Assembly: GCA_030838045.1 (NCBI GenBank)
Contig: JAUTXN010000332.1
Location: 1 to 33,379 of the forward strand
DNA from: Acidimicrobiaceae bacterium
Lineage (GTDB): Bacteria; Actinomycetota; Acidimicrobiia; Acidimicrobiales; Palsa-688
Direction: 5' to 3'
DNA: 33,379 nt
In this document: piece by piece, positions 5,289 through 33,379 of the stretch
How the letters are laid out: every line of letters begins with the position of its first letter
Position numbering within the stretch: position 1 is the stretch's first letter
Position numbers and translations under genes: made by a program
The notes under the pieces: generated by a model
Told to the model about the DNA's origin: nothing
Databases searched by the model: none
The model's input: only the letters and a program-made list of their open reading frames with translations

Positions 5289-5306
5289 CAATGGTTCGTC
5301 GAGGCG

Positions 5307-9791: not shown

Positions 9792-9982
9792 TGGATGGGC
9801 TCCTGCTCGTGGGGACGTATCGCCCGACCGGGGCCTTCCCCGTTGAAGGGGAGGCCGCGCTGCCACCCATCCCGGTCTTGGGAGTAAGCCGCGAATGTAT
9901 CGCGTCAGGACCATGGGTCTGCGACGGCAGCCACCCGGTAGCGTTCGGTGATCGGGTCCGACTTTCGGTAGGGAAGGGATCG

Positions 9983-11119: not shown

Positions 11120-11123
11120 GGCG

Positions 11124-14893: not shown

Positions 14894-14906
14894 CGGGCCG
14901 CCGCAC

Positions 14907-17267
14907 TCATGAGTTGGCTCCGGCTCGGGCGATGGGCAGCAGCGGTCGGGGGCCACCGGCGGCACGGGGCCACTGCTCGACGTGCCAGCCCCGCTTGCGG
15001 GCGATGGCGGCCAGCTTGGTCTCGGGGTTGACAGCCACCGGATGGCCGACCGCTTCGAGCATGGGCAGGTCGCTGGCCGAGTCGGCGTAGGCGACCGACT
15101 CCTGCAGATCGAGTCCTCGGGCGGCGGCGTAGTCGGCCATCAGCAGGGCTCGTGCCTCGCCCGTGGGCGGACCGGCCAGCAGTTCGCCGGTGTAACGGCC
15201 GTTCTCGATGCCGAGTGAGGCGCACATCACGTCGTCGAACAGCGGCCGCAGCGGCTCGATGGCGACGTCGAGGGCCCCGGTGATGAGCAGCGTGCGATGG
15301 CCCAGGCGGCGGTGCGCCCGGACCCGGCGGATACCCGCGGGGAACGCCTTGGTCAGCAACAGCTCGCTCCACAGCTCCCAGGAGTCGTGTTCGAGGCGAG
15401 CGACCGGGGCGCCCTCGTAGCGGCGGTAGAAGTGGCGGAGAAAGTCCCCGCGGTCCTGGCGATCGAGGGCGAGGAGGCGGGGAGCCTCGCGCACGGTACG
15501 AAGGACCAGTCGGAGGCGATCGTTGTCATCGATCCGTCGGGTTGCCAACCAGGCATAGGAATCGACGACGTTGGAGGCGATGAGGGTGTTCTCCAGGTCG
15601 AACACCGCCAACTGGCGTTCCGGCGCCAGTACCGCCCGGCGCCCACGTTGCTCGCGGGTCGGGGTAGGGACGCTGCGCCGGGGCGCACCCGCGACGCGGA
15701 CGCGGGCGTGCGCCACGACCGACGGCATGTGGGTGTCGCGCACGTACATCGGCCATTCGACGCCCGCGGGGTCGAAGAGGAAGTCGGCCTGGTCGGCTGG
15801 GGGCAGCGTGGCCCACAGTTCCAGGAGGCGGTCGACCCGGAACACCGCTTCGGTCTCGGTGTAGGCGCCGTACAGCTCGACGTAGCCCAAGGCCCGTTCG
15901 GCTTCCGAGCGCTTCTCCTCCAGCCGGGCTGACAGCTCGGCCTGGCGGCCCCGCAAGGGCAGCGTCTGCAGCCCCTTCTCGGCGACCGACAACACCTTCG
16001 CCGCCTGGGCCAGCTGGCGGCGGACGCGACCGCGTCCGGGGTACGACCACTCGGGGACCACGATGGGCTGGCCGTTGCTGTCCGCCAACGGGTGCTCGCC
16101 GAACCAGCCCCGGACCAGCTCGACCAGCTGGCGGTAGCGCAGCGGGTTGCGCGAGCCCGATGCCACCTGGAACACCGCCGGTTTCGCTCCGGGGGGCGGA
16201 CCGCCGTCGGCCGCGACGGCAATGATGGCCGCCACGACGAGGTCGACCGGAATGACGTCCACCACTCCCTCGGGCAGGCCCGGGAACTCCTTCAGCAGGC
16301 CCCGTCCCAGGCTGATGATGACCGGTTCCGCCATACGGAAGCCCCGGATCCATCCCGCATGGGGCTCGGCAAGGGCCGACTCGATGATCGAAGGGCGCAC
16401 GATGGACAGCCGGACGCCATGATGTGACTCGAGCAGCGCCCGTTCGCCCAGCGCCTTGGTGTAGGCGTAGGCGTCGGGCCATCCGAGCGCCTGGGCCCGG
16501 GCCTTGCCGGCCTTGACGAGGTGATCCTTGACCCACTCTTCGCGGAGCTTCTCCGCTTTGGCGGCCAGCACCGGTGTGCCCGCGGCCCCGAGTTCGGCGC
16601 GCGCCGCTTTGGTGAACTTGGACAGGCGCTCGGGCGTGCGGCTCTGGGCGTCGGCGTCAGCCCCGACCCGGCGAGCGGCGGCGACCTCAGGGCGCCACTG
16701 GACCTCGGTCGCGAAGGGGGTGTCGGGAAGGATGGCCTCGGGCGCATCTCCCCGGCGGGACCCCGCGACGTATGCCGTCGAGACCGTGATGAGATGCGGC
16801 AGGGCCGTCCCGGCTGCGGTGCCGCCCTGCGCCACCCGGGCCGCGGTCATGGCCGCCGCCACCCGGCTCGGACCCAGCAGGTTCACCTCGACCGCGCTGT
16901 CGAGCGGTGAGTCGAAGCTGACCGATGCCGCAGCATGGATCACGATGTCGCATCCCGCCAGCACGCCTTGTCCAGCGGCGTCGAGCCCGAGGCCGTCGGA
17001 GCCGACGTCGCCCGCCACGGCGATGATGCGCCGGCCCATCTCCTCGTCGAACGCCGGGCCGAGCTCGCGTCGGAGCCGGTCGAAACAGTCGTTGCGCAAA
17101 ATCTCGCGCCGGACTCGCTCGGCGGCGCCCCGCCGTCCCGGACGGACCAGAAGGGCGACTTCGCAGTCCGGGACCTGGCGCATCAGGCGCTCCACCAGCG
17201 CCGTGCCAAGAAAACCGGTCGCACCGGTGATGGCGATGCGCTGGCCGGCCAGTGCCTCACGGAGCAT
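14907..17267 (-). CDS. Fatty acyl reductase (extended SDR) fused to HAD-IB domain
   Basis: A 786-residue fusion. Residues 9-480 form an extended SDR of the male-sterility/acyl-reductase type: TGATGFLG (NADPH loop), STAYVAGSRRGDAPE, and the YxxxK pair in DAYAYTKALGERAL (Y267, K271). Such domains reduce acyl-CoA to an aldehyde or alcohol. Residues about 553-780 form a HAD-IB domain beginning FDLENTL (D557) and ending AYADSASDLPMLEAVGHPVAVNPETK. The usual second Asp of DxDxT is Glu559, so phosphatase activity is uncertain. Similar fusions are found in actinobacteria. First gene of the operon, starting 24 bp from the divergent tetR with the operator between them. GATAAT on the minus strand at 17278-17273 ends 5 bp before its ATG, so the mRNA may be leaderless. 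Confidence 0.88.
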   Translation of the reverse strand: MLREALAGQRIAITGATGFLGTALVERLMRQVPDCEVALLVRPGRRGAAERVRREILRNDCFDRLRRELGPAFDEEMGRRIIAVAGDVGSDGLGLDAAGQGVLAGCDIVIHAAASVSFDSPLDSAVEVNLLGPSRVAAAMTAARVAQGGTAAGTALPHLITVSTAYVAGSRRGDAPEAILPDTPFATEVQWRPEVAAARRVGADADAQSRTPERLSKFTKAARAELGAAGTPVLAAKAEKLREEWVKDHLVKAGKARAQALGWPDAYAYTKALGERALLESHHGVRLSIVRPSIIESALAEPHAGWIRGFRMAEPVIISLGRGLLKEFPGLPEGVVDVIPVDLVVAAIIAVAADGGPPPGAKPAVFQVASGSRNPLRYRQLVELVRGWFGEHPLADSNGQPIVVPEWSYPGRGRVRRQLAQAAKVLSVAEKGLQTLPLRGRQAELSARLEEKRSEAERALGYVELYGAYTETEAVFRVDRLLELWATLPPADQADFLFDPAGVEWPMYVRDTHMPSVVAHARVRVAGAPRRSVPTPTREQRGRRAVLAPERQLAVFDLENTLIASNVVDSYAWLATRRIDDNDRLRLVLRTVREAPRLLALDRQDRGDFLRHFYRRYEGAPVARLEHDSWELWSELLLTKAFPAGIRRVRAHRRLGHRTLLITGALDVAIEPLRPLFDDVMCASLGIENGRYTGELLAGPPTGEARALLMADYAAARGLDLQESVAYADSASDLPMLEAVGHPVAVNPETKLAAIARKRGWHVEQWPRAAGGPRPLLPIARAGANS

Positions 17268-17275
17268 GCGCCATT

Positions 17276-17293
17276 ATCTACCATCTGGTAGAT
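17276..17293. promoter_or_regulatory. TetR-type operator palindrome
   Basis: ATCTACCA-TC-TGGTAGAT: perfect 8-bp half-sites with a 2-bp centre, filling most of the 24-bp gap between the two divergent start codons and overlapping the ATG of tetR and the candidate -10 of the acyl reductase. Size and symmetry fit a TetR-family dimer. Binding is inferred. Confidence 0.7.
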
Positions 17294-17885
17294 GACAGGC
17301 GCCAACACCCGAGAGCGTGTCGTGGACGCGGCGGTGGCGGCGTTCGGTTCACGGGGCTACGACGGCACCAGCCTCGACGCCCTGGCCGGAGAGTTGGGCG
17401 TCCGTAAACAGACCATCTTGTATTACTGCCCGTCCAAGGAGGCGCTGCTCGACGCGGCTATCGACCGGGCCTCGGGCGAGCTGTCGGCCGCCCTCGAGGA
17501 GGCACTCGACGGCGCCGGGACCGGGTGGAGCCGGGTCGAAGCGGTGGTCCGCTCGGTGTTCCGCCTGGCGGCCCGGCGTCCCGAACTGCTGGGCCTGCTG
17601 CGCGAGGTGAGCCGGCTCGGGCCTCCCGCGGCCACCCGGTTGACATCGGCTCTCGAGCCGTTGATCGGCCGGGCGACGGTGTTCCTCGAAGACGAGATGG
17701 ACTGCGGGACCATGCGCCGCCATGACCCGAAACTCCTCCTGCTGGCCGCCTACTCCGCCGTCATCGGCGTGGCCACCGAGGTCGAGGTGCTGAAGGCGCT
17801 GGGCTACGAGCCCACGGCCCGGTCGCTGGTGCGCCGCCGGCGGGAGCTTCTCTCGTTCCTGCGCTCGGCCCTGGTTCCAGGTTGA
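17292..17885 (+). CDS. TetR/AcrR-family transcriptional regulator
   Basis: A 197-residue regulator. Residues about 5-52 form the TetR helix-turn-helix (RERVVDAAVAAFGSRGYDGTSLDALAGELGVRKQTILYYCPSKEALL). The C-terminal ligand domain is mostly helical and not diagnostic. It is divergent from the acyl reductase operon, and the only sizeable palindrome in the gap lies between the two starts, so it most likely represses both itself and that operon, with an acyl-CoA or related lipid as a plausible ligand (inference). There is no room for a ribosome binding site outside the palindrome, which suggests a leaderless transcript. It converges with the membrane protein gene at 17911. Confidence 0.92.
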   Translation: MTGANTRERVVDAAVAAFGSRGYDGTSLDALAGELGVRKQTILYYCPSKEALLDAAIDRASGELSAALEEALDGAGTGWSRVEAVVRSVFRLAARRPELLGLLREVSRLGPPAATRLTSALEPLIGRATVFLEDEMDCGTMRRHDPKLLLLAAYSAVIGVATEVEVLKALGYEPTARSLVRRRRELLSFLRSALVPG

Positions 17886-17892
17886 CCCCGAA

Positions 17893-17914
17893 CTGACCGG
17901 CCCCGGGTGGTCAG
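17893..17914. terminator. Bidirectional hairpin between tetR and 17911 gene
   Basis: CTGACC and GGTCAG arms around GGCCCCGGGT in the 25-bp gap between two convergent stops. The GC-rich stem has no T-tract, as is common in high-GC actinobacteria. Confidence 0.4.
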
Positions 17915-18459
17915 CTGCGGCGGGTGGGCTTCGACTTCGGTGGCGTGTATCGGCGGTTGGGGGCCGGGGTCTTGGACACGGCCGCCGCGCCCGGGGCGGC
18001 GCGTCCCTTGCGACTGGCCTTGGCGGCCGCCCGGGCCTGGGCCGCCACCCGTCGCTCCGCCGCGGTCAGGACGGGCTGTGCCCGCCGGGCCTTGTTCTGG
18101 GCGTTGCTGGTGCGCATCACCAGGTAGCCGCTGTAGGCCACGCACGCCAACTCGAGGGGTAGGAGTTGCGAAAGCGCGATCCCAACGAGGAATCCCGCCA
18201 GGGCCGTGAAGACGCGTTGTCCGTGGCGTACCGCGACCACCAACAAGGCGGTGGCCAGGGCACCGATGGTGCCCAGCAGCACGTCGTGGGGGCCGGTCAG
18301 GGCCACGCCAGCCGCAGCGGCCGCCGCGAAACCGGCCAGGATGTAGCCGATCCGCTGTTCGCGGGGGTCCATCAGGGTGGGCTTGGGCACTGGTGCCGGA
18401 CGTCCGATCTCCGGCACCGAGTCGGATCCGACCGGTTCGACCTCGTCGGATCCGTTCAT
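17911..18459 (-). CDS. Small membrane protein with basic C-terminal tail
   Basis: Not recognised. 182 residues: an acidic/Pro-rich N-terminus (about 1-35), then three or so hydrophobic segments (IGYILAGFAAAAAAGVAL, VLLGTIGALATALLVVAV, TALAGFLVGIALSQLLPLELACVAYSGYL), and a strongly basic Ala/Lys/Arg tail from about residue 118 (NKARRAQ... KSKPTRRS). The tail could bind nucleic acid or acidic lipids, but that is only suggested by charge. Its ATG overlaps the stop of the upstream 116-aa gene (ATGA), so the two are probably co-translated. Confidence 0.75.
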   Translation of the reverse strand: MNGSDEVEPVGSDSVPEIGRPAPVPKPTLMDPREQRIGYILAGFAAAAAAGVALTGPHDVLLGTIGALATALLVVAVRHGQRVFTALAGFLVGIALSQLLPLELACVAYSGYLVMRTSNAQNKARRAQPVLTAAERRVAAQARAAAKASRKGRAAPGAAAVSKTPAPNRRYTPPKSKPTRRS

Positions 18460-18806
18460 TCGGCCGGATCAGGATCGGCACCGGGCGGTGCCAGGAGCCA
18501 GGGCCGGATCTTCACCACTTTGTCGCTCGGAAGGATGCCGCCCAGATCCGCTTCGACCGAAAGGTCGGTCGGAGGCTCTCCCGATGCCTCCATCACGACC
18601 GCCGCTTCCTCACGGGGCGCCTCAAAGACTTCCTTGAGACCCAAGCCGAAACCGGTCAGCAGTACACCGGCCACACTCCGCCGCCGCCACGACTCCATTC
18701 GGGGAGGGAGGGCGGTATGAAGCTCCCCGTCGGCATCGGGCCCCGCGTCGAGATGAAACTCCATCCCGTCCACGTCTACCGCTCGCGGCTGGTCGGCCTC
18801 CTCCAC
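18456..18806 (-). CDS. Conserved-looking hypothetical protein, 116 aa
   Basis: Not recognised. An acidic protein (MEEADQPRAVDVDGMEFHLDAG...) with a central stretch WRRRSVAGVLLTGFGLGLKEVFE that could be a short membrane-contact or amphipathic segment, and a Pro/Asp-rich end. It is coupled by a 4-bp ATGA overlap to the membrane protein gene downstream, which supports it being a real gene and suggests a shared function. Confidence 0.6.
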   Translation of the reverse strand: MEEADQPRAVDVDGMEFHLDAGPDADGELHTALPPRMESWRRRSVAGVLLTGFGLGLKEVFEAPREEAAVVMEASGEPPTDLSVEADLGGILPSDKVVKIRPWLLAPPGADPDPAE

Positions 18807-18841
18807 ACTCCCACCGTACTCAACCTCGAAGGTGCAGCGTC

Positions 18842-19003
18842 CTAGTCGAGTGCGTCCTTGACCTTGTCTTTCACGTCGTCAACCTTGTCCTTGACCGAAC
18901 CCGTGGCCCGGTCGATCTTGCCTTCGCGCTTCATGTCGTCATCGTCGGTCAGGTCGCCCACGGCTTCCTTGGCGCGACCCTTGAGATCGTCTGTGTTGGT
19001 CAT
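18842..19003 (-). CDS. CsbD-like stress protein, 53 aa (missed by ORF track)
   Basis: Reading the minus strand from ATG at 19003 gives MTNTDDLKGRAKEAVGDLTD followed by a charged Lys/Asp-rich repeat ending VKDKVKDALD and TAG. The start DLKGRAKEAVGDLTDD, the segment KREGKIDRATGSVKDK and the high Lys/Asp/Glu content are typical of the CsbD family of small general-stress proteins, which are usually 55-70 residues. Its biochemical role is unknown; in several bacteria the family is induced by general stress. It follows the glycosyltransferase gene by 35 bp on the same strand and may share its transcript. Confidence 0.85.
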   Translation of the reverse strand: MTNTDDLKGRAKEAVGDLTDDDDMKREGKIDRATGSVKDKVDDVKDKVKDALD

Positions 19004-23281: not shown

Positions 23282-24328
23282 ATGGCATCTGCGCTGGACG
23301 AGACAGTGATCCATGTCTTGTGGATCAATGCTGGGCTCAGCTGTGACGGCGACTCGGTCGCCCTCACCTCAGCGACCCAGCCCAGCATCGAGGAAATTGC
23401 TCTTGGGGCATTGCCCGGACTGCCGAAGATTGCAGTTCACTGGCCGCTCATCGACTTTGAGTGCGGCCCGGTAGGCGGGGCGGATGACTTCATCGAGTGG
23501 TTCTTCATGGCTGAGCGAGGTGAACTAGAGCCGTTCGTGCTGGTGGTTGAGGGGTCCATCCCCAACGAGGCCATCAAGCGTGAGGGTTACTGGTGCGGGT
23601 TCGGCAACAACCCGGCCACCGACCAGCCCATGACGACGAGTGAGTGGCTTGACCGGTTGGCACCGAAGGCGACGGCGATCCTCGCCGTTGGCACCTGTGC
23701 AACCTACGGTGGCATTCACGCCATGTCCGGCAACCCCACTGGGGCCATGGGTGTGGCTGACTACCTCGGCTGGGGCTGGAAGTCAAAGGCCGGCCTGCCG
23801 ATTGTCAACGTGCCGGGCTGCCCGATCCATCCCGACAACCTGTCGGAGACCATTCTTTACCTGCTGTACCAGGCCACTGGCCAGGCCCCGATGATCCCCC
23901 TGGATGACGCCCTTCGGCCCCTGTGGCTGTTCGGCAACACCGTCCATGAGGGTTGCGACCGGGCCGGCTACTACGAGCAGGGCGACTTCGCCGACGAGTA
24001 CGGCTCGCCCAAGTGCATCGTGAAGCTGGGCTGCTGGGGCCCCGTGGTCAAGTGCAATGTCCCCAAGCGGGGCTGGACCAACGGCGTGGGCGGTTGCCCG
24101 AACGTCGGCGGCATCTGCATCGGATGCACGATGCCGGGCTTCCCGGACAAGTTCATGCCCTTCATGGACGAGCCCCCGGGTGCTAGGGTCTCGACCGCAG
24201 CTTCGGGGGTTTATGGCGGCGCGATTCGTGGATTGCGGCGTATTACAGGCAAGACCGTGGACGAGGAGCCGAAGTGGCGTACGCCAGGCAAGAAGCTCCT
24301 GACCGGATACAAGGGCGAGTGGAGGTAG
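23282..24328 (+). CDS. hhyS: Group 1h [NiFe] hydrogenase small subunit
   Basis: The electron-transfer subunit of an actinobacterial-type high-affinity uptake hydrogenase, relaying electrons from H2 through three Fe-S clusters. ATG at 23282 follows GGGAGG. 348 residues, with no Tat signal and no C-terminal membrane helix, as in group 1h. The proximal cluster segment is LSCDGDS: C21 is followed at +3 by D24 instead of the usual Cys, with C139 (GTCATYGG) and C180 (PGCPIHPDN) completing the site. The Cys-to-Asp change is a known mark of this group. Distal ligands H222, C225, C245 and C251 and medial ligands C258, C279 and C282 are visible, with an additional C272. It is followed 3 bp later by hhyL, whose ribosome site GGAGG lies in the last hhyS codons. 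Confidence 0.96.
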   Translation: MASALDETVIHVLWINAGLSCDGDSVALTSATQPSIEEIALGALPGLPKIAVHWPLIDFECGPVGGADDFIEWFFMAERGELEPFVLVVEGSIPNEAIKREGYWCGFGNNPATDQPMTTSEWLDRLAPKATAILAVGTCATYGGIHAMSGNPTGAMGVADYLGWGWKSKAGLPIVNVPGCPIHPDNLSETILYLLYQATGQAPMIPLDDALRPLWLFGNTVHEGCDRAGYYEQGDFADEYGSPKCIVKLGCWGPVVKCNVPKRGWTNGVGGCPNVGGICIGCTMPGFPDKFMPFMDEPPGARVSTAASGVYGGAIRGLRRITGKTVDEEPKWRTPGKKLLTGYKGEWR

Positions 24329-24331
24329 TCG

Positions 24332-26119
24332 ATGCCTAGTAGGACACAACAGGCCAGCGGGCTTGTCGAGATGGCGTGGGATCCGGTTACACGCATCGTC
24401 GGCAGCCTCGGGATCTACACGAAGATCGACTTTGGTCGCGGCAGGGTCGTTGACTGCCACTCCACCTCCTCGATCTTCCGTGGCTACAGCATCTTCATGA
24501 AGGGCAAGGACCCTCGGGACGCGCACTTCATCACCAGCCGTATCTGCGGTATCTGCGGCGACAACCACTGCGAAGTTTCGACCTGGACGCAGAACATGGC
24601 GTTCGGCGTGGTACCTCCGCACCTGGGTGAGTGGATCTCGAACCTCGGCGAAGCCGCCGAGTACATGTTCGACCACAACATCTTCCAGGAGAACCTGGTT
24701 GGCGTCGACTTCTGCGAGAAGATGGTCAGCGAGACGAACCCGGGCGTGCTGGATCTGGCCAACCGGACCGCGTCCCCGCACGCAGAAGACCATGGTTACG
24801 CCTACATCGGCGACATCATGCGGTCCCTCAACCCGTTCTCGGGTGAGTTCTACCGTGAGGCTCTGGCGGTCAGCCGCTGGACCCGTGAGATGTTCTGCCT
24901 CATGGAGGGCCGCCACGTTCACCCGTCCACCCTGTACCCGGGCGGCAACGGCACCACGGCGACCATCCAGCTGTTCACCGACTACTACGCCCGGCTGATG
25001 CGTTATGCGGAGTTCATGAAGCGGGTCGTGCCGTTGCACGATGACCTCTTCAACTTCTTCTATGACGCCATGCCCGGATACGAAGAAGTCGGCCGTCGTC
25101 GCATCCTGACCGGTTGCTGGGGCTCGTTCCAGGACCCGGACGTCTGCGACTTCAACTACCGCAACATGACCGAGTGGGGCCGTGCCATGTTCGTCACCCC
25201 CGGCGTCGTCGTCGACGGCAAGCTGGTGACCAACGACTTGGTCGACATCAACCTCGGTATCCGGATCCTCCTCGGTCACTCGTTCTACGACGACTGGGAA
25301 GGTCAGGAGATGTTCGTGACCAAGGACCCCCTGGGCAACCCGGTCGATCGCCGGCACCCGTGGAACCAGCACACCATCCCGCAGCCCCAGAAGCGTGACT
25401 TCGACGGCAAGTACAGCTGGGTCATGGCGCCTCGTTGGTTCGACGGTCGGGATCACCTGGCCCTGGACACCGGCGGCGGCCCGCTGGCCCGTCTGTTCGC
25501 CATCGCCCTTTCGGGCCTGGTGGACATCGGCTACATCAAGGCCACCGGTCACAGCATCGAGTTCCATCTGCCCCGTACCGCGCTGAAGCCCGAGAAGGAC
25601 TTCGTGTGGGAGGTACCGAAGTGGTCGAACGCCATCGAGCGTGACATCGCCCGTACCTACTTCCAGCTGTACGCCTGCTGCTGCGCCCTGCACTTCATGG
25701 ACAAGGCGCTGGCGGAAGTGCGAGCTGGACACACCAAGACCTGGTCGCCGTTCACGGTTCCCGACGAAGCCATCGGTTGCGGCTTCATCGAGGCGGTCCG
25801 CGGTGTTCTCTCCCACCACCTGGTTATCCGCGGTGGGAAGATCGCCAACTACCATCCGTACCCGCCGACCCCTTGGAACGCCAACCCGCGTGACAGCTAC
25901 GGCACTCCCGGACCGTATGAAGATGCGGTCATGAACACGCCTATCTTCGAGGAGAACAGCCTCGAGAACTTCAAGGGCATCGACATCATGCGTGCGGTCC
26001 GGTCGTTCGACCCGTGCCTGCCGTGTGGCGTCCACATGTACCTTGGCAAGGGCAAGGTCCTCAAGCGCACGCATTCGCCTTCCGCGTCCGCCGAGGATTG
26101 CACCCTGCAGGTAGGCTAA
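24332..26119 (+). CDS. hhyL: Group 1h [NiFe] hydrogenase large subunit
   Basis: The catalytic subunit holding the NiFe(CN)2CO centre. 595 residues. The N-terminal Ni-binding motif is SRICGICGDNHC (C72, C75) and the C-terminal motif is DPCLPCGVHM (C562, C565, H568). A 27-residue tail (from M569) follows the histidine and is expected to be cut off by the maturation protease encoded downstream. Codon choice contains many CGT and GGT codons compared with its neighbours, as expected for strong expression. The chain is long and, like other group 1h subunits, carries inserts relative to group 1 membrane-bound enzymes. The gene is followed by a strong hairpin before the accessory genes. Confidence 0.97.
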   Translation: MPSRTQQASGLVEMAWDPVTRIVGSLGIYTKIDFGRGRVVDCHSTSSIFRGYSIFMKGKDPRDAHFITSRICGICGDNHCEVSTWTQNMAFGVVPPHLGEWISNLGEAAEYMFDHNIFQENLVGVDFCEKMVSETNPGVLDLANRTASPHAEDHGYAYIGDIMRSLNPFSGEFYREALAVSRWTREMFCLMEGRHVHPSTLYPGGNGTTATIQLFTDYYARLMRYAEFMKRVVPLHDDLFNFFYDAMPGYEEVGRRRILTGCWGSFQDPDVCDFNYRNMTEWGRAMFVTPGVVVDGKLVTNDLVDINLGIRILLGHSFYDDWEGQEMFVTKDPLGNPVDRRHPWNQHTIPQPQKRDFDGKYSWVMAPRWFDGRDHLALDTGGGPLARLFAIALSGLVDIGYIKATGHSIEFHLPRTALKPEKDFVWEVPKWSNAIERDIARTYFQLYACCCALHFMDKALAEVRAGHTKTWSPFTVPDEAIGCGFIEAVRGVLSHHLVIRGGKIANYHPYPPTPWNANPRDSYGTPGPYEDAVMNTPIFEENSLENFKGIDIMRAVRSFDPCLPCGVHMYLGKGKVLKRTHSPSASAEDCTLQVG

Positions 26120-26134
26120 AACCATTGGTAGGTC

Positions 26135-26166
26135 CCGGCCGCCCGGCCCAAAAACCGGGCGGCCGG
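26135..26166 (+). terminator. Strong hairpin between hhyL and the accessory genes
   Basis: Perfect 12-bp GC arms CCGGCCGCCCGG and CCGGGCGGCCGG around loop CCCAAAAA, 16 bp after the hhyL stop, with no T-tract. It could be a partial terminator or a 3' stabiliser that keeps hhySL mRNA in excess over the accessory genes. Confidence 0.7.
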
Positions 26167-26211
26167 TAGTATGTGCTTCAGGTAACTAACTTGACCCCGG
26201 AGGGGGGGCCC

Positions 26212-26793
26212 ATGGCCGAGAAGAAAAACCTCCGGGCCGTTGGTGATCGGATCGAGCAGCTGCTCGACGAGCTGCGAGCAGCTGCTGATCCGCGCTTATA
26301 CGGCCAGGCTGAAGAGATGTTGGGCCTGGTCACCGAGTTGTACGGCGGTGGCTTGGCGAGAATCGTCGAGGTAGTGGGGGAGAGCGATCCGGCAACATTG
26401 GAACGCCTGTCTCACGACGAGCTCATTTCGAGCTTGCTCCTCGTTCATGGCTTGCACCCAGACGACCTGGAAACTCGGGTCATCCGGGCGCTGGAAGGCG
26501 TCAGGCCGATGCTGGCCGGCCATGGAGGCGACGTCGAGTTGCTGGACATCGATGCGGCCGCGGGAGCGGTGCACCTGAACTTGCTGGGTAGCTGCCATGG
26601 CTGCCCGTCGTCGACGGTGACCCTCCGGATGGCAGTTGAAACCGCTATCGCCGAGGCCGCGCCTGAGATCGTCATCATCGACGTCGAGCAGCCGACCGAG
26701 GAAGCTCCGCCCGTCGGAGAGCCGGTCCCAATCACGCTCGGGGCCAAAAAGACTGTCTTTGAGGAGTGTCCGGCGGAGCTGGTGCAGCGATAA
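26212..26793 (+). CDS. NifU C-terminal-domain protein of the hydrogenase operon
   Basis: 193 residues from ATG at 26212, preceded by GGAGGGGGGG; the ORF track start at 26173 is upstream of this strong site. Residues about 1-80 are a helical domain I do not recognise. Residues about 88-165 match the NifU C-terminal (Nfu) scaffold domain, with VRPMLAGHGGDVELLDI and the Fe-S binding GSCHGCPSS (C128, C131). Nfu domains carry or transfer Fe-S clusters. Here it may help load the hydrogenase small subunit or act as an electron carrier. Homologous NifU-domain genes are a regular part of group 1h operons in actinobacteria. A C-terminal tail of about 30 residues follows the domain. Confidence 0.87.
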   Translation: MAEKKNLRAVGDRIEQLLDELRAAADPRLYGQAEEMLGLVTELYGGGLARIVEVVGESDPATLERLSHDELISSLLLVHGLHPDDLETRVIRALEGVRPMLAGHGGDVELLDIDAAAGAVHLNLLGSCHGCPSSTVTLRMAVETAIAEAAPEIVIIDVEQPTEEAPPVGEPVPITLGAKKTVFEECPAELVQR

Positions 26794-26802
26794 TGAGTAC
26801 AT

Positions 26803-27465
26803 ATGACAGATTCAATTAGCGATCCCGTGAGCGCCCCCCGGGAGCCGCTCAAAGTTCTCGAGCGCATCCGTGACCGGAGCATGGCCCGCCGGCCGCGGCC
26901 GGGCGAGGTGTGCGAGTTGTGTGGGGAGCCCATCCCCGACGAGCACAACCACTTGGTCGACCTGAAGGCCCGCAACCTGATGTGCTCGTGCCGGCCGTGC
27001 TACTTGCTGTTCACCCCGGACGGGGCGGGCGGCCAGCACTACCTGGCGGTGCCCGACCGCTACTTGATGTTCGAGGATTTCTCCTTGACGCAGTCGCAGT
27101 GGGACGCCCTGCAGATCCCGGTGAGCGTGGCCTTCTTCCTGGTCAACTCCGAGTTGAAGCGCGTCGCCGCCTTCTACCCGAGCCCGGCCGGGGCGACTGA
27201 GTCGCTCCTGTCGCTCGAGATCTGGGACGAAGTCGTGGCGGCCAACCCGACCCTGGGCAGCATCCTGCCCGACGTCGAGGCGTTCCTCGTGCAGAAGGAC
27301 AAGACGGGCAACAACCCCGAGTGCTATCTGGTGCCGATCGACGCCTGTTACGAGCTGGTCGGCGAGATGCGCAAGCTGTGGCGAGGATTCGACGGCGGCA
27401 AGGAAGCCCGAGAAGCTCTCGAGGCGTTCTTCGACCGGGTCAAGTCGAGAGCCACGAAAGTCTGA
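26803..27465 (+). CDS. DUF5947-like hydrogenase-associated protein
   Basis: 220 residues. The N-terminal third has a likely metal site: CELCGEPI (C37, C40), HNH (H48, H50), then MCSCRPCYLLF (C61, C63, C66), resembling a treble-clef zinc or Fe-S site. The remainder is a mixed alpha/beta region with WDALQIPVSVAFFLVNS and FYPSPAGATESLL. The family matches what I know as DUF5947, found beside actinobacterial group 1h hydrogenases; its function is unknown. It lies 9 bp after the NifU-domain gene, and its stop overlaps the next ATG (TGATG), so it is part of one translationally coupled operon. Possible roles are metallocentre assembly or electron transfer. Confidence 0.8.
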   Translation: MTDSISDPVSAPREPLKVLERIRDRSMARRPRPGEVCELCGEPIPDEHNHLVDLKARNLMCSCRPCYLLFTPDGAGGQHYLAVPDRYLMFEDFSLTQSQWDALQIPVSVAFFLVNSELKRVAAFYPSPAGATESLLSLEIWDEVVAANPTLGSILPDVEAFLVQKDKTGNNPECYLVPIDACYELVGEMRKLWRGFDGGKEAREALEAFFDRVKSRATKV

Positions 27466-28109
27466 TGAGCTCTCTCGATTTCGAGGTCCTCGGCGCCCGG
27501 GCACAGCCCTACGCCGCGGTCCCTACGATCATGTTCAAGATCCGGATCACCGAGGCGTCGGGCTACTACGTCCACGCCGTCGCCCTCCGGGCCCAGATCA
27601 TGATCGAGCCCCAGCGGCGGTCCTACAACAGCGAGGACCACGATCGGCTCTACGAGCTGTTCGACGACCCCAAGCGGTGGGGGACGACGCTCAAGCCGTT
27701 CCTGTGGACCCACACCGGGATCGTGGTTCCCCGCTTCGACGGGACGATCGAAGTCGACCTGCCCATGACATGCACCTATGACTTCGAGGTGGCGGGCAAC
27801 AAGTACCTCCACAGCCTGCGCGACGGCGAGGTCCCGCTCCAGTTCCTCTTCGCCGGGACCTTCTTCACCAACGGCGACAACGACTCGGGATTCGCCGCCG
27901 AACCGGTGGGCTGGAACAAGGATCGTTCGTTCAAGATGCCCGTCCAGGTGTGGCGCGAGTGCATGGACATGTACTTCCCCAACAGCGGCTGGATCCGGGC
28001 CCGCAAGGAAACCATCGACCTGTTGACGAAATATAAGGTCAGCAAGGCGCTCCCGACATGGGAAGACACCATCGAGGCCCTCCTGAAGCAAGCGGGCGAG
28101 GACGTATGA
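27465..28109 (+). CDS. DUF6084-like hydrogenase-associated protein
   Basis: 214 residues from ATG at 27465, which overlaps the preceding stop (TGATG); the longer track ORF from 27321 lies inside the previous gene. The sequence starts MSSLDFEVLGARAQPYAAVPTIMFKIRITEASG and reads as a beta-sandwich-like protein without transmembrane segments or metal-binding cysteine pairs. It fits DUF6084, a family known mainly from its place in actinobacterial hydrogenase operons. No function is established. A structural or chaperone role in hydrogenase assembly is inference. It overlaps the next gene by 4 bp. Confidence 0.78.
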   Translation: MSSLDFEVLGARAQPYAAVPTIMFKIRITEASGYYVHAVALRAQIMIEPQRRSYNSEDHDRLYELFDDPKRWGTTLKPFLWTHTGIVVPRFDGTIEVDLPMTCTYDFEVAGNKYLHSLRDGEVPLQFLFAGTFFTNGDNDSGFAAEPVGWNKDRSFKMPVQVWRECMDMYFPNSGWIRARKETIDLLTKYKVSKALPTWEDTIEALLKQAGEDV

Positions 28110-29794
28110 CCGGCACTGGCACTGGCACCACGGCAACGGGCACCACGGCAACGGAGAAGATGCTGATCGACAAGATGGACACCCGCTTCGCAACCGCCGG
28201 TGGCGTGGCCGACGCCGTCTTGTACGAGGGCTACATCCTGTACCCCTACCACGCGACCCACGGCAAGAACCGCGGGGGCGTCCGATTCCAGTGGGGTGTC
28301 CTGGTCCCGCCATCGTGGCGCGAGGTCGACTCCTCCGAGCGCTCCGTCATGCGCACCGAGCTCATCGTCGATCCCGGCACCGAGCCCATGATCGCCGTCC
28401 GGCTCCGCTTCCTGCAGCTGCAGCACCGGGGCCTGGAAGAGGCTGACCCCAGCGCCGAGAGCGGCTACCGCCCCACCTCGAAGTTGGAGATCGGCGACGA
28501 GGTCTGGATGGAGTGGGACGAGGCCATCGAGCAGACGTTCGACCTCGGGGTCATGGCGCTGCTCCCATTGGCGCAGGCGTCGCGCACGGTGCCGATCGAC
28601 TTCCCGGCATCGAGCCTCATCGCCATTGTTGGCGAGGACGGTGTGGAGGCCGAAGTCGGCGCCGCGGCCGGGCCGCCGGCGGGGCGGATCGTTCGTTCGA
28701 CCGAGCCGATCACCGGTGAAGTGCGTGTGACCGTCGGCTGGGCCGATGGGCCGGGCGTGTTGCTCAAGGTGACGATCGAGGTGGAGAACACCACCGACTG
28801 GAAGGTGAAGGGAGCCGGTCGCGAAGACGTGATGCGGCGGTCGCTCATCGCCGTCCATACCCTGGCGGCAGTCGAGGATGCGGCGTTCTGCTCCCTGTTC
28901 GATCCCCCTGAGGGGGCGGAAGAAGCGGTGGCCGGTTGCCAGAGCATCGGTTCCTACGCCGTGCTCGTGGGCAAGCAGGGTGCGACGGACCTGGTGCTGG
29001 CTTCGCCCATCATTCTGTACGACTACCCCGCCATTGCTCCCGAGAGCGACGGTGATTTCCATGACGGTTGCGAGATCGACGAGATCCTGGCGCTTCGGGT
29101 CTTGACCTTGACCGACGACGAAAAGGCCGAGGCCCGGGGCACTGACCCGCGCTCGCGCGCCATTATTGACCGCTGCGACAACATGGTCGACGCATCCTGG
29201 GACAAGCTTCACGGCATCATGCGCGATGTGCGCACCCTCGATGACCCCGGTGACAACCGGATCGATCCCAACGAGCCCGAGCCTGTTCCCTGGCTCGACC
29301 CGGTGATCGACGCTTCGTTTGACCCGTGGAGCGACATCGTCGTGATCCGCGATGTCGAGATCAGCAAGGGTTCGCGGGTCCGGTTGGCGCCCAACCATCG
29401 CGCCGACGTGCACGACATGTTCCTCGCCGGGCTGACGGCCACGGTGGCCGGCGTGTTCCACGACGTCGACGGTGGCTTCCACGTGGCCGTGACGGTCGAC
29501 GGCGACCCGGCCACGGAGCTGTACGAGGTGCAGGGCCGCTTCTACTACTTCCATCCCGACGAGATCGAGCCTCTGAGCGCGGCCGAGGCCGATGCCTTCG
29601 GCCAGGCCGAGACGATGCGCCAAGCCGGTCGCGACGTCGACGCCGCCCGCAGCGCCCAGGTGGGCTGGGCCGGTGGGTTCGACTTCCCGACCATCGTCGG
29701 TGACGGCACTGAATCGGCGAAAACTGAATCTGGGGAAAACGCCGCCGGGTCCGGCGAGCGTGCCGTGGGCGCGGACGGGGACTCGGCTCAGTGA
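28106..29794 (+). CDS. Uncharacterised 562-aa hydrogenase-operon protein
   Basis: No named domain recognised. The start at 28106 forms an ATGA overlap with the previous gene; ATG at 28160 (MLIDKMDTRF) is a possible alternative. The first 17 residues are a Thr/Gly run coded by short repeats. Residues about 20-70 read VADAVLYEGYILYPYHATHGKNRGGVRFQWGVLVPPSW, and near residue 430 there is a second conserved-looking block, GSRVRLAPNHRADVHDMFLAGLTATVAGVFHDVDGGFHVAVTVDGDPA, ending FYYFHPDEIEPL. I know similar proteins in actinobacterial group 1h loci, always annotated hypothetical. The body is acidic and has no signal peptide or membrane helix. It overlaps the maturation protease gene by GTGA. Possibly a large-subunit chaperone or scaffold, but unproven. 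Confidence 0.85.
   Translation: MTGTGTGTTATGTTATEKMLIDKMDTRFATAGGVADAVLYEGYILYPYHATHGKNRGGVRFQWGVLVPPSWREVDSSERSVMRTELIVDPGTEPMIAVRLRFLQLQHRGLEEADPSAESGYRPTSKLEIGDEVWMEWDEAIEQTFDLGVMALLPLAQASRTVPIDFPASSLIAIVGEDGVEAEVGAAAGPPAGRIVRSTEPITGEVRVTVGWADGPGVLLKVTIEVENTTDWKVKGAGREDVMRRSLIAVHTLAAVEDAAFCSLFDPPEGAEEAVAGCQSIGSYAVLVGKQGATDLVLASPIILYDYPAIAPESDGDFHDGCEIDEILALRVLTLTDDEKAEARGTDPRSRAIIDRCDNMVDASWDKLHGIMRDVRTLDDPGDNRIDPNEPEPVPWLDPVIDASFDPWSDIVVIRDVEISKGSRVRLAPNHRADVHDMFLAGLTATVAGVFHDVDGGFHVAVTVDGDPATELYEVQGRFYYFHPDEIEPLSAAEADAFGQAETMRQAGRDVDAARSAQVGWAGGFDFPTIVGDGTESAKTESGENAAGSGERAVGADGDSAQ
28124..28153 (+). repeat. Tandem 15-bp repeat at the start of the 562-aa gene
   Basis: Two exact copies of GGCACCACGGCAACG, preceded by GGCACT repeats, encode TGTGTTATGTTAT. 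In-frame unit. Confidence 0.85.
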
Positions 29795-30330
29795 GCCCCC
29801 GCATCCTGTGCGCCGGAATCGGCAATGTCTTTTTCAGCGATGATGGCTTTGGCGTCGCAGTGGCCAACCGTTTGGCCCGCATGCCCGTGCCGGATTGCGT
29901 TCAAGTCGAGGACTACGGCATCCGTGGGGTGCACCTGGCGTACGAGCTGTGCGAAGGCTACGACGCGTTGGTGCTCATCGATGCCATGCCGATGGGCGAT
30001 GAGCCCCCGGGCACACTAGTGATCCTCGAACCCGATGCGCCGCCGCCCGCTGCACATGGCGATGACGACGACGTCGTACCGGTGATGGATGCCCACACCA
30101 TGAGCCCACTTGTGGTGTTGACAACTTTGGCTAATCTCGGTGGTTCCGTCGACCGGATCCTGGTAGTTGGATGCCAGCCGGCGACAATCGAGGAAGGGAT
30201 GGGACTCTCGGAACCGGTGGCTGCGGCTGTCGACCGAGCAATAGAGATGGTGAGCGAGCTGCTCACTGAGCTGGTGGGCGACCTGCTCACCGATGCGTGC
30301 CAACCTGCTGGAAGGGAGACCAGAACATGA
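29791..30330 (+). CDS. Hydrogenase maturation endopeptidase (M52 family)
   Basis: 179 residues from GTG at 29791 (GTGA overlap). Cuts the C-terminal tail of the hydrogenase large subunit after nickel insertion. The family signature is GIGNVFFSDDGFGV (residues 9-22), and the three nickel-sensing positions (E16, D62, H93 in E. coli HybD) correspond to D18, D64 (LIDAMPMG) and H102 (DAHTMSP). The Glu-to-Asp change at the first position is conservative. Its target is almost certainly HhyL, encoded in the same operon. The C-terminal helix SELLTELVGDLLTDACQ is a little longer than in HybD. Confidence 0.93.
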   Translation: MSPRILCAGIGNVFFSDDGFGVAVANRLARMPVPDCVQVEDYGIRGVHLAYELCEGYDALVLIDAMPMGDEPPGTLVILEPDAPPPAAHGDDDDVVPVMDAHTMSPLVVLTTLANLGGSVDRILVVGCQPATIEEGMGLSEPVAAAVDRAIEMVSELLTELVGDLLTDACQPAGRETRT

Positions 30331-30431
30331 TTCGACGTTTGATGATGTCATTGGTGTTTGCGCTACTCGCGGCTGTGGTCGTGAAGTCGCTGCCCGACAT
30401 CGCTCGGTACCTGAAGATCCGGGAGATGTGA
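30327..30431 (+). CDS. 34-aa single-pass membrane microprotein (DUF6893-like)
   Basis: Too short for the ORF track. ATG at 30327 overlaps the protease stop (ATGA). Sequence: MIRRLMMSLVFALLAAVVVK followed by SLPDIARYLKIREM. One hydrophobic helix (about residues 6-19) with Arg on the N-side and a basic amphipathic tail. It resembles the DUF6893 family of small proteins that I associate with actinobacterial hydrogenase loci. Function unknown; a membrane anchor or adaptor for the otherwise soluble hydrogenase is a plausible idea. It is followed after 1 bp by a second microprotein with a similar tail. Confidence 0.82.
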   Translation: MIRRLMMSLVFALLAAVVVKSLPDIARYLKIREM

Positions 30432-30432
30432 C

Positions 30433-30552
30433 ATGAACATCCTCGGCCTGATTTTCCTTGTTGTCCTCGCTCTAGTTGTCCTCTTCGTGATCGGGCTGCT
30501 TGTGGCCTCGCTCTCCAGCATCTCCCGGTACAGCCGCATCCGGAAGATGTGA
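30433..30552 (+). CDS. 39-aa single-pass membrane microprotein, paralogue-like
   Basis: Too short for the ORF track. ATG at 30433, 1 bp after the previous stop. Sequence: MNILGLIFLVVLALVVLFVI then GLLVASLSSISRYSRIRKM. A long hydrophobic helix (about residues 3-27) is followed by ISRYSRIRKM, matching the preceding protein's IARYLKIREM at six of ten positions (I.RY..IR.M). The GAGATGTGACATGAAC context shows tight coupling of the two. The shared tail suggests a shared docking site. The function is not known. Confidence 0.78.
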   Translation: MNILGLIFLVVLALVVLFVIGLLVASLSSISRYSRIRKM

Positions 30553-30577
30553 CAATCAAAAAAGAAAGGCGACTTCT

Positions 30578-30877
30578 ATGTGCCTAGGAATCCCCGGTCA
30601 AGTCATCGAGATGCTTGACCATGAGCATCTCGCCCGGGTTGACGTCGCCGGCGTAGGCCGGATCATCAACATCGGGTTGCTGGAGGAAGAGCCGGTGACT
30701 GTTGGTGACTGGGTTCTCATCCACGTCGGCTTCGCCATGTCCAAGATTGACGAGGAAGAAGCACAGCAGGCGATGGAAGGGCTTCAAATGATGGGCGAGG
30801 CATACACCGACGAGATGACGGCGATGTCGTCATCGAGTGTCACGACCAGTACAGGAGGAGAAGCATGGCAGCGATAG
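30578..30877 (+). CDS. hypC: Hydrogenase maturation chaperone HypC
   Basis: 99 residues from ATG at 30578; the track ORF from 30500 reads through the microprotein gene. It begins MCLGIPGQVIEML, with the essential Cys2 after Met removal, followed by the beta-barrel segment ARVDVAGVGRIINIGLLEEEPVTVGDWVLIHVGFAMSKID. HypC binds HypD and carries the Fe(CN)2CO moiety to the large-subunit precursor. The C-terminal ~25 residues (DEMTAMSSSSVTTSTGGEAWQR) extend beyond the usual domain. The next gene starts inside this gene (13-bp overlap). Confidence 0.96.
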   Translation: MCLGIPGQVIEMLDHEHLARVDVAGVGRIINIGLLEEEPVTVGDWVLIHVGFAMSKIDEEEAQQAMEGLQMMGEAYTDEMTAMSSSSVTTSTGGEAWQR

Positions 30878-31107
30878 TGGGGCTGATCATCGGCTACCTG
30901 CTAGGTACTCGCGCTGGGGACAAGGGTCACGAAGAGCTCCAAGAGTCGTGGCGCACCATCACCACGTCCCAGGGCTTCCGGGACATGCTCGGCGGTTTCT
31001 TTGCCCTCATGGGTGAGTTCCTGAACCGGGGCCGGGGAGCACTGGCGCAGAAGCTTCAGACGCCGGAAATCGAAGCTCGTTCGCGCGAGCTCGAGCAAGC
31101 AGCGTAG
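30865..31107 (+). CDS. 80-aa membrane protein with GYLLGxxAG motif
   Basis: ATG at 30865 lies inside the end of hypC, preceded by GGAGGAG. An N-terminal membrane helix MAAIVGLIIGYLLGTRAG is followed by an amphipathic, charged helical region (SQGFRDMLGGFFALMGEFLNRGRGALAQKLQ...). Not a family I can name; it is YtxH-like only in general form. The protein at 32377 has a closely similar start (GFVLGYLLGSEAG) and similar helical segments, so the two look like paralogues in one operon. A role in membrane association of the hydrogenase is possible but untested. Confidence 0.82.
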   Translation: MAAIVGLIIGYLLGTRAGDKGHEELQESWRTITTSQGFRDMLGGFFALMGEFLNRGRGALAQKLQTPEIEARSRELEQAA

Positions 31108-31120
31108 GGCCAGGGTCCAG

Positions 31121-32248
31121 ATGCGCTTCGTCGACGAGTACCGTGATCCCGCCGCCGCGCGGGCCTTGGTGGCACGGATCACCGAGCTGGCCGGCGACGA
31201 TCATTTCAAGTTCATGGAGGTGTGCGGGGGACACACCCATACCATCTACCGTCACGGCATCGAGCACGTCCTGCCGTCCAGCGTCGAGCTGGTCCACGGC
31301 CCGGGCTGTCCGGTGTGTGTCATCCCGATGGGCCGTGTCGATGACGCCATCGCGGTTTCGGAGAACCCTGGCGTCATCTTCACGTCCTTCGGGGACATGA
31401 TGCGAGTCCCCGGAAGCAACGGCAACCTGCTCGAGGCGAAGGCCCGCGGCGCGGACATCCGGTTCGTGTACTCGCCGCTCGACTCCCTCCGGATTGCCAT
31501 GGAGAATCCCGACCGAGAGGTTGTCTTCTTCGCGGTCGGATTCGAGACCACCGCTCCCTCGACAGCTCTCACATTGCTGAAGGCTCGCGAGCACGGAGTC
31601 ACGAACTTCAGCGTGTTCTGCAATCACGTGACCATCGTCCCCCCCATCAAGGCCATCCTCGAATCCCCGGACCTGAGGCTTGATGGGTTCTTGGGACCAG
31701 GTCACGTGTCGACGGTGATCGGACAACGTCCGTACCGTTTCGTCACGGCTCAATATGGCAAGCCGTTGGTCACAGCCGGGTTCGAACCACTGGACATCCT
31801 CCAGGCGATCGCCATGCTCCTCCTGCAGATCCGGGAGGGCCGCTGCGAGATCGAGAACCAGTACACCCGAGTGGTCCGTGATGAAGGCAACCCGCGGGCG
31901 CTGGCAGTGCTGGGCGAGGTGTTCGAGCTTCGGCCCCACTTCGAGTGGCGGGGACTCGGGTTCATCTCTCAGAGTGCGTTGAAGCTGCGTCCCGAGTTCG
32001 CCGAGTTCGATGCCGAGCTCAAGTACCACGTGCCTGGTGTCCGGGTCGCTGACCCCAAGGCGTGCCAGTGTGGCGAGGTGCTCAAGGGCGTCATCAAGCC
32101 CTGGGAATGCAAGGTCTTCGGTACCGCCTGCACACCCGAGACTCCGATCGGCACCTGCATGGTGTCCTCGGAAGGGGCGTGCGCGGCGTACTACAACTTC
32201 GGTCGCCTGCACCGTGAAGCGGCCGTGACGCTGGGTCGCCGGGCGTAG
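31121..32248 (+). CDS. hypD: Hydrogenase maturation factor HypD
   Basis: 375 residues, full family length. HypD is the [4Fe-4S] scaffold on which, with HypC, the Fe(CN)2CO unit is assembled. Signature motifs are FMEVCGGHTHTIYRHG, VHGPGCPVCVIP, VGFETTAPSTAL, FLGPGHVSTVIG and the C-terminal cysteine-rich cluster-binding segment CQCGEVLKGVIKPWECKVFGTACTPETPIGTCMVSSEGACAAYY. It lies 13 bp after the 80-aa membrane protein gene. The partners hypA, hypB, hypE and hypF are not in this window. Confidence 0.97.
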   Translation: MRFVDEYRDPAAARALVARITELAGDDHFKFMEVCGGHTHTIYRHGIEHVLPSSVELVHGPGCPVCVIPMGRVDDAIAVSENPGVIFTSFGDMMRVPGSNGNLLEAKARGADIRFVYSPLDSLRIAMENPDREVVFFAVGFETTAPSTALTLLKAREHGVTNFSVFCNHVTIVPPIKAILESPDLRLDGFLGPGHVSTVIGQRPYRFVTAQYGKPLVTAGFEPLDILQAIAMLLLQIREGRCEIENQYTRVVRDEGNPRALAVLGEVFELRPHFEWRGLGFISQSALKLRPEFAEFDAELKYHVPGVRVADPKACQCGEVLKGVIKPWECKVFGTACTPETPIGTCMVSSEGACAAYYNFGRLHREAAVTLGRRA

Positions 32249-32376: not shown

Positions 32377-32721
32377 GTGGAAGTTCTGGCAGGTTTTGTG
32401 CTGGGGTATCTCCTAGGTAGCGAGGCCGGAGGCGACAGCGTGTCGGTCATAAAAGACGCTGTGGGATCCGTCGTCGGGTCTGGAGATGTCCAGTCCGTAT
32501 TCACCGGTGGTATGGCCACGGCCCAAGGGCTGATGGGTGGCCTGTTCAGTGGTGGGGGGTCGGCCAAGGGCGCCATCACCGACATGGCTTCCTCCGACGA
32601 AGTGAAGGGCATGGTTACAGCGGGGTTTTCGACCGCGCAGGGGCTGGTCATGGACCTGTTCGGGCGCGGCCAGGAGATGGTTTCACAGCAACGGGGCAAA
32701 GGGCTCCGGCTGGTTATCTGA
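32377..32721 (+). CDS. 114-aa Gly-rich protein with internal repeat and GYLLG motif
   Basis: GTG at 32377, preceded by GAGGAGCAGGG. The N-terminal helix MEVLAGFVLGYLLGSEAG parallels the 80-aa protein at 30865. The body has two copies of a ~26-residue unit with a 38-residue period: S35-G60 (SGDVQSVFTGGMATAQGLMG...) and S73-G98 (SDEVKGMVTAGFSTAQGLVM...). The units share TAQGL and LFxxG. They look like amphipathic helices that could lie on a membrane or pack together. Unknown function. A 128-bp gap after hypD, which contains a TCTGTACAGA palindrome at 32290, may hold its own promoter. Confidence 0.75.
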   Translation: MEVLAGFVLGYLLGSEAGGDSVSVIKDAVGSVVGSGDVQSVFTGGMATAQGLMGGLFSGGGSAKGAITDMASSDEVKGMVTAGFSTAQGLVMDLFGRGQEMVSQQRGKGLRLVI

Positions 32722-32745: not shown

Positions 32746-32976
32746 ATGGCCGACATCTTCGAGACTGTCATTGGAATGGCCGAGCCGGCACTGAAGGTGG
32801 TCGGTGGCTTCGTAGGAGGGGTACAGCAGTCTGTCCAGAAGGTCATCAACAATGCCGTAGCTGAGGCCCTGAAGGCCTCGGGTGCCGGTGCGGCTGCGGC
32901 CGCCCCGGAGGCTCCTCCGGCTCCGGCTCCGGCCGCCGCAGGTCGGGTCCGTCCCCTTCGAGCGCCCGGCCGATAA
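32746..32976 (+). CDS. 76-aa small protein with Ala/Pro tail
   Basis: ATG at 32746 preceded by GAGGGAGAG, 24 bp after the previous gene. Residues 1-47 form a probable amphipathic helix pair (MADIFETVIGMAEPALKVVGGFVGGVQQSVQKVINNAVAEAL); the remainder is a low-complexity Ala/Pro tail ending RVRPLRAPGR. Not recognised. The Gly/Val-rich helical start resembles the repeat units of the preceding protein in style but not closely in sequence. Last gene of the cluster before the hairpin at 33108. Confidence 0.65.
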   Translation: MADIFETVIGMAEPALKVVGGFVGGVQQSVQKVINNAVAEALKASGAGAAAAAPEAPPAPAPAAAGRVRPLRAPGR

Positions 32977-33107
32977 CACCGGCGGTTCGAGGCAGTTCCT
33001 CGCCTCGCACCTGCCTCGAAGCGAGAGCAGATCCGCCGGCGCCACGAGTGGCGACGGCGTTCGGGGGCTTCACGTTCCCGTGAAACCAGTGCCCATAGCA
33101 AGCGACA

Positions 33108-33140
33108 CGGCCTGATCGGCGGTACCCGCTGATCAGGCCG
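33108..33140 (+). terminator. Terminator-like hairpin ending the hydrogenase cluster
   Basis: Perfect 10-bp arms CGGCCTGATC and GATCAGGCCG, with an inner GCGG/CCGC stem around GGTACC. No T-tract. It separates the hydrogenase genes from cbbL. Confidence 0.7.
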
Positions 33141-33171
33141 GTTCGCGTCATGACGCCTTCTGCTGCGTGCG

Positions 33172-33195
33172 ATCGATAGGCGTATAGCTATCGAT
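33172..33195. promoter_or_regulatory. Operator-like inverted repeat upstream of cbbL
   Basis: ATCGATAG-N8-CTATCGAT, perfect 8-bp arms; ATCGATAGG also recurs as a direct repeat 18 bp apart. About 40 bp upstream of the candidate -10. It contains no T-N11-A match, so it is not a textbook CbbR site. Confidence 0.6.
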
Positions 33196-33211
33196 AGGTG
33201 GAGAATTGGTA

Positions 33212-33241
33212 TTGGACGGGTTAACCCCCGTGCGGCACTAT
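33212..33241 (+). promoter_or_regulatory. Candidate cbbL promoter with palindrome in the spacer
   Basis: TTGGAC (33212-33217), 18 bp, then CACTAT (33236-33241), 40 bp before the cbbL ATG. The spacer holds the perfect palindrome GGGTTAACCC (33218-33227), which could be a repressor site. Confidence 0.4.
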
Positions 33242-33281: not shown

Positions 33282-33379
33282 ATGGCAGATGGTGGCGGTA
33301 ACGGAAAGCAGGGCCAGCAGCAACTCGAAGGCGAGAAGCGCTGGGGTGCCGGCGTTATTCCCTATGCCAAGATGGGCTA
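33282..33379 (+). CDS. cbbL: RuBisCO large subunit, N-terminal fragment (cut by window end)
   Basis: ATG at 33282 follows a strong TAGGAGG site; 32 codons are visible before the window ends. After a Gly/Gln-rich start (MADGGGNGKQGQQQLEG) the sequence EKRWGAGVIPYAKMG matches the N-terminus of form I (red-type/actinobacterial) RuBisCO large subunits, where (A/S)GVxPYxxMGYW precedes PDYxPKDTD. Catalytic residues lie outside the window, so the call rests on about 15 residues. RuBisCO beside a group 1h hydrogenase is a known arrangement in H2-oxidising actinobacteria, which supports it. The form (IE or other) cannot be decided here. Confidence 0.8.
   Translation, partial: MADGGGNGKQGQQQLEGEKRWGAGVIPYAKMG

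Follow-up and report, generated by a model that had tools for sequence, protein, structure and literature searches.

A group 1h hydrogenase gene cluster followed by the predicted start of a form IE RuBisCO operon in an uncultured Acidimicrobiales genome

Do the genes for H2 oxidation and CO2 fixation that meet at the end of this contig belong together, such that hydrogen feeds the Calvin-Benson-Bassham (CBB) cycle? The window, meaning the whole stretch of DNA analysed, is the entire 33,379-base contig C46 of a MAG (G000; 4.0 Mb, 89.7% complete), and it stops 98 bases into an open reading frame (ORF) that reads as cbbL, encoding the RuBisCO large subunit. Co-occurrence of form IE rbcL and group 1h hhyL in one genome is well described (PMC9561532, PMC7437527), and the first-pass annotation of this DNA took the hydrogenase next to RuBisCO as the genetic signature of carbon fixation driven by atmospheric H2. 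That signature stands as co-occurrence within a genome, but the literature does not describe it as adjacency (PMC9561532). No paper in the literature searched was found to describe form IE and group 1h genes lying side by side, but coverage was incomplete and this is weak evidence; what appears unusual here is the tight gene linkage. Overall, we consider it probable that this uncultured member of the Acidimicrobiales carries a group 1h cluster and, after it, a form IE RuBisCO operon with a promoter of its own, and runs an H2-fed CBB cycle. The hydrogenase (Hhy) would oxidize H2 and pass the electrons to the respiratory chain, and ATP and reductant from H2 oxidation would supply the CBB cycle.

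The hydrogenase gene cluster

In phmmer searches, HhyL scored 1055.7 bits against PDB 5AA5 (Cupriavidus necator HofG) and 164 bits against the next structure, and on the basis of this margin its sequence identifies the enzyme as a group 1h hydrogenase, in agreement with the first-pass annotation. Consistent with this assignment, hhyS and hhyL adjoin, an HhyE-like NifU-type iron-sulfur protein is encoded, and the L1 and L2 cysteine motifs are intact. The group 1h structural genes appear complete and the maturation set partial, the contig carrying hhySL, nifU/DUF5947, DUF6084, a protease gene, hypC, and hypD. The order hhyS, hhyL, nifU, DUF5947, DUF6084, p563, protease, hypC, hypD (Table 1) is common to other Acidimicrobiales; p563 had no family match, including in NCBIfam. 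HhyE functions as an electron-transfer protein (PMC6883350). The mycobacterial protein has a NifU domain and a CxxC domain; at 26209-27465 these seem to be divided between two genes, one for a NifU protein and one for a DUF5947 protein, the latter possibly being the rubredoxin-like half of HhyE.

Table 1. Features of the hydrogenase cluster and the contig end, in window coordinates
Feature	Position	Strand	Evidence or remark
hhyS, group 1h [NiFe]-hydrogenase small subunit	23282..24328	+	92% to contig-end HhyS of G012; 87-91% to most other Acidimicrobiales HhyS
hhyL, group 1h [NiFe]-hydrogenase large subunit	24332..26119	+	L1 RICGICGDNH and L2 DPCLPCGVH present
NifU-domain protein, N-terminal half of HhyE-like electron-transfer protein	26209..26793	+	PF01106, E=6.6e-21
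DUF5947 protein, CxxC motifs CELC and CSCRPC	26803..27465	+	PF19372, E=1.1e-72
DUF6084 protein, conserved in Hhy clusters, found in relatives	27453..28109	+	PF19562, E=4.8e-86
p563, cluster-conserved protein of ~563 aa	28103..29794	+	orthologues 37-50% identical, same place in relatives
Hydrogenase maturation protease, HycI/HyaD type	29791..30330	+	PF01750, E=3.5e-16
hypC	30578..30877	+	PF01455, E=1.2e-25
hypD	31121..32248	+	77-88% to HypD of relatives and M. intracellulare plasmid
Small ORF, 114 aa, GxxxGYLLGxxAG start	32377..32721	+	small-protein family beside hypC/hypD in other Acidimicrobiales Hhy clusters
Small ORF, 76 aa, Ala/Pro-rich tail; function and reality uncertain	32746..32976	+	no convincing family match (Pfam)
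Hairpin, 21-nt arms 86% complementary, no T-run	33102..33146	+	candidate transcription boundary between hydrogenase and cbb units
Perfect 8-8-8 inverted repeat, ATCGATAG-N8-CTATCGAT	33172-33195		overlaps cbb promoter/operator
Predicted cbb-type promoter/operator: CbbR-like sites ATAG..CTATCGATAG, then -35 TTGGAC, 17-18 nt, -10-like GCACTATG	33176..33237	+	matrix from 10 relatives
Start of cbbL (RuBisCO large subunit), 32 codons up to the contig end; form IE by proxy	33282..33379	+	25/27 aa to G076 CbbL; tree clade

G+C content is 0.61-0.66 across 24001-32000 and 0.66-0.74 in the first 20 kb, a difference that may reflect horizontal gain. A second group 1h HhyL, 68% identical to that of the window, is encoded elsewhere in the genome (G000:C160 8552-10273, L183); hhyS was the only further cluster gene in the 20 kb read there, and a similar copy occurs in the sister genome G001.

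The first-pass annotation had called the hydrogenase high affinity, which membership in group 1h does not imply. The closest solved structure is that of the C. necator enzyme, which has a Km of 3.6 uM and whose host cannot oxidize atmospheric H2, whereas a Methylacidiphilum organism reaches subatmospheric H2 with its group 1h enzyme (PMC7174314). Atmospheric affinity, like autotrophy, cannot be read from sequence.

The start of cbbL and its promoter

The terminal ORF is preceded by a good ribosome-binding site, AGGAGG, and translates as MADGGGNGKQGQQQLEGEKRWGAGVIPYAKMG, a peptide too short for Pfam, in which it had no match. Its best match is the complete CbbL of another member of the Acidimicrobiales (G076, L105), GNGKQGQQALEGEQRWGAGVIPYAKMG, to which 25 of 27 residues are identical. 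The identity covers a nonconserved N-terminal extension, GNGKQGQQxLEGExRW, that is absent from other CbbLs. Most of the last 84 bases of the window align to G076 cbbL, and the nearest cbbL within the family, that of G023, is 88% identical over the last 43 bases (E = 6e-9). Sequence comparison thus confirms the earlier reading of the 98-base contig end as the predicted start of CbbL.

Form I CbbL was present in 4/32 family genomes and 36/397 order genomes in our search of relatives. In a maximum-likelihood tree, G076 CbbL clustered with those of G023, G205, G051, G014, G012, and G002 and with a CbbL encoded on an M. intracellulare plasmid (support 97/99), apart from form IC (Cupriavidus, Afipia, Phyllobacterium) and form IA. 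The CbbL of mycobacteria is form IE (PMC12999727), and since G076 CbbL shares a clade with mycobacterial CbbL, the cbbL of the window, through this closest relative, is by proxy probably form IE. The form IE placement expected by the first-pass annotation was therefore obtained for G076 and extends to the window gene itself by proxy only. In the same way, the continuation as PDYxPKDTD, cbbS, and cbbX is seen in relatives only; cbbS and cbbX lie downstream of cbbL in nearly all form IC and IE relatives with sequence there.

The upstream regions of cbbL in relatives have AT-rich LysR-type sites and a TAGACA -35 box in common. We built a matrix from these regions in 10 relatives (leave-one-out scores, -2.3 to 51.5; a weakness is that its anchors were placed by eye), and it scored 39.6 on the 62 bases at 33176-33237. 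The next best site in the window scored 1.9, and the best score in ~130 kb of other contigs of this genome and the sister genome was 6.3. A standard scan for sigma-70 promoters and terminators gave no match above chance. By the matrix, cbbL has its own predicted promoter, and together with the hairpin this disfavors read-through into cbbL from the hydrogenase operon. The hydrogenase cluster had been described as directly followed by the RuBisCO gene. The two are indeed neighbors on the same strand, with 7.2 kb between hhyL and cbbL, but the hairpin and two small ORFs separate hypD from cbbL in a gap of ~1.03 kb, of which ~0.3 kb is gene free. The first small ORF (32377-32721) had no Pfam match; small proteins starting MGxxxGFxxGYLLGxRAG adjoin hypC/hypD in several Acidimicrobiales Hhy clusters (L201, L175, L179, L177, L180). 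The predicted form IE cbb operon would thus be a transcription unit separate from the hydrogenase cluster, lying 3' of it, with its first 32 codons ending the contig.

CBB genes on a second contig and linkage in relatives

Other key CBB genes appear to lie on contig C9 of the same genome, again beside hydrogenase maturation genes. According to Pfam, the order on C9 is PAS protein, cbbR-type LysR gene, GAF kinase, NarL-type regulator, rpe remnant, phosphoribulokinase (PRK), and class I aldolase (FBA), after which come hypF, a hypC-like gene, SIS, and hypE; hypB follows by sequence. The PRK exceeds its NCBIfam cutoff (372.9 versus 236). The same PAS-to-hypE order is found in the sister genome (G001:C80) at 87-90% identity, with rpe intact. 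On C9 (L196 4242-4271), deletion or misassembly has removed most of rpe (~640 bases) from the interval separating the response regulator from PRK. Because C46 carries hhy/hyp genes with cbbL and C9 carries cbbR, PRK, and FBA with hyp genes, CBB and hydrogenase maturation genes are, by sequence, linked on two contigs of this genome, and C9 reinforces the linkage of H2 and CBB genes proposed in the first-pass annotation. Contamination was ruled out: bases 1-18986 of the window are syntenic with the same-genus genome G001 at 83-88%, and the contig therefore belongs to the genus.

Several other genes bear on the CBB inventory. Three PRK-type genes occur in G000 (C100, C15, C9), those on C100 and C15 being paralogues away from cbb genes. 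PF00016 matches on C261 (L002) and C103 (L003) were rejected as the missing RuBisCO, as they encode RuBisCO-like proteins that share 20-28% identity with form I CbbL; the gene on C261 adjoins mtnA (methionine salvage). The glpX gene of the window, cited earlier in favor of autotrophy, was discarded as evidence for the CBB cycle, since it belongs to the general gluconeogenic machinery and the cbb-linked FBPases of relatives are only 44-55% identical to it.

Of the CbbL loci read in the order and phylum samples, those of G012, G047, G132, G447 (Huc), and G680 have hydrogenase or hyp genes no more than 10 kb from cbbL; this rate is a lower bound, many other CbbL loci being cut by contig ends. The window and the family member G012, in which hhyS is 6.7 kb from cbbL, are the only two cases with group 1h structural genes close to cbbL, and tight linkage of a group 1h cluster to cbbL is rare. 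At the genome level, 6 of the 20 group 1h genomes in the order also have form I RuBisCO, where ~1.8 would be expected (p=0.006). Form IE accounts for two of the six (p=0.07), and the IE-only excess is not significant unless G000 itself is counted. In G047:C80 (L174), a form I CbbL on the form IC side of the tree lies 2.3 kb from hypE/hypD, and the nearby group 1-like hydrogenase is only 42% identical to HhyL.

These patterns bear on whether the two gene sets are coupled. As a tentative extension, H2 oxidation and CO2 fixation might constitute one coregulated genomic island in this genus, with hydrogenase maturation and the RuBisCO operon both under the control of CbbR and the GAF/NarL pair, as a hard-wired H2-autotrophy module that was also assembled independently, with Huc, in mycobacteria. 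Somewhat less likely is the contrary proposal, that a real cbb operon and a real hydrogenase are mere neighbors, with a low-affinity hydrogenase and a RuBisCO that serves redox balance or a different electron donor. The separate promoter and hairpin, the many cbbL loci in the order and phylum (most of them) that have no hydrogenase nearby, and the low affinity of the C. necator group 1h enzyme (PMC7174314) would all fit functional independence, but hyp or hydrogenase genes recur beside cbb genes in C9, C80, G012, G132, G047, G447, G680, and the M. intracellulare plasmid.

We think it improbable that the contig end is a short-read chimera in which the hydrogenase cluster was joined to a cbb promoter and cbbL start that come from elsewhere or from a different organism. 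The contig does break less than 100 bases from the cbbL start, the junction region is absent from the sister G001 bin, and none of the 80 closest named group 1h Hhy loci has CbbL within its flanks of up to 10 kb. Moreover, cbbL in relatives is usually preceded by a divergent cbbR, whereas cbbR in G000 is away from this place, on C9. Against this, the cbb promoter, operator, and coding sequence form a stretch of ~200 bases that joins without a break the sequence behind the small ORFs of the cluster, and the terminal 35 bases of the window occur only once in the binned genome. In addition, PRK and cbbR lie with hyp genes in both G000 and its sister, as hhyS does with cbbL in G012. The presence of a cbb promoter upstream of cbbL argues against a random chimeric join at the ATG; any chimeric join would have to sit upstream of the promoter. 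Least probable of all is a truncated or decaying cbbL in a heterotroph whose hydrogenase serves persistence only: just 32 codons are visible, no CbbS, CbbL body, or contig-end overlap was found in the bin, and most of rpe is missing on C9, but what can be seen of cbbL, with its ribosome-binding site and promoter, is conserved, the PRK and FBA genes are intact, and an assembly break accounts for the absence in an 89.7% complete bin.

Comparison with known systems

Atmospheric chemosynthesis has so far been inferred mostly from two marker genes in one MAG. Here a cbb promoter adjoins a hydrogenase cluster and CBB genes adjoin hyp genes; physical linkage of this kind raises the likelihood that the two functions are coupled and makes such coupling testable. 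We infer that the hydrogenase and cbb genes are jointly regulated and support H2-dependent CO2 fixation; the locus would add a form IE lineage in the Acidimicrobiales and provide candidate genomes for isolation. H2/CBB linkage recurs with different hydrogenases (group 1h, another group 1-like enzyme, and Huc), including on a mobilizable plasmid.

The atmospheric chemosynthesis gene set (PMC9561532, PMC7437527) pairs these marker enzymes within a single actinobacterial genome, but there they are reported as co-occurring, whereas here the clusters are contiguous. The Acidimicrobiia of PMC8528921 have form IA RuBisCO, unlike the nearest relatives of the window, which have form IE. Aciditerrimonas, an example of a close cultivated relative, possesses Hhy together with a form IA CbbL. 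Cupriavidus necator H16 likewise carries group 1h HofG and CbbL on one megaplasmid, pHG1, but its CbbL is form IC and lies ~63 kb away round the circular plasmid, and its group 1h enzyme has low affinity (PMC7174314). In G012 (L012), hhyS, whose product is 92% identical to that of the window, shares a contig with the cbb operon, but it points away from the PRK/regulator/cbbR/cbbLSX block and the contig ends inside hhyS. The plasmid of M. intracellulare subsp. chimaera (NZ_CP012886.2, L159) resembles the G000 arrangement in bringing together form IE-like cbbLSX, PRK, a response regulator and GAF kinase, hyp genes, and a hydrogenase, and its HypD is 81% identical to that of the window. The region (308588-349976) contains PRK, tkt, rpe, response regulator/GAF kinase genes, cbbLSX, and convergent hyp-Huc genes, and is a mobilizable H2/CBB region. 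It differs from the window in that the adjacent, convergent hydrogenase belongs to group 2a (Huc, with 1071.8 bits against 7UUS), the group 1h hydrogenase of the plasmid lying ~52 kb away.
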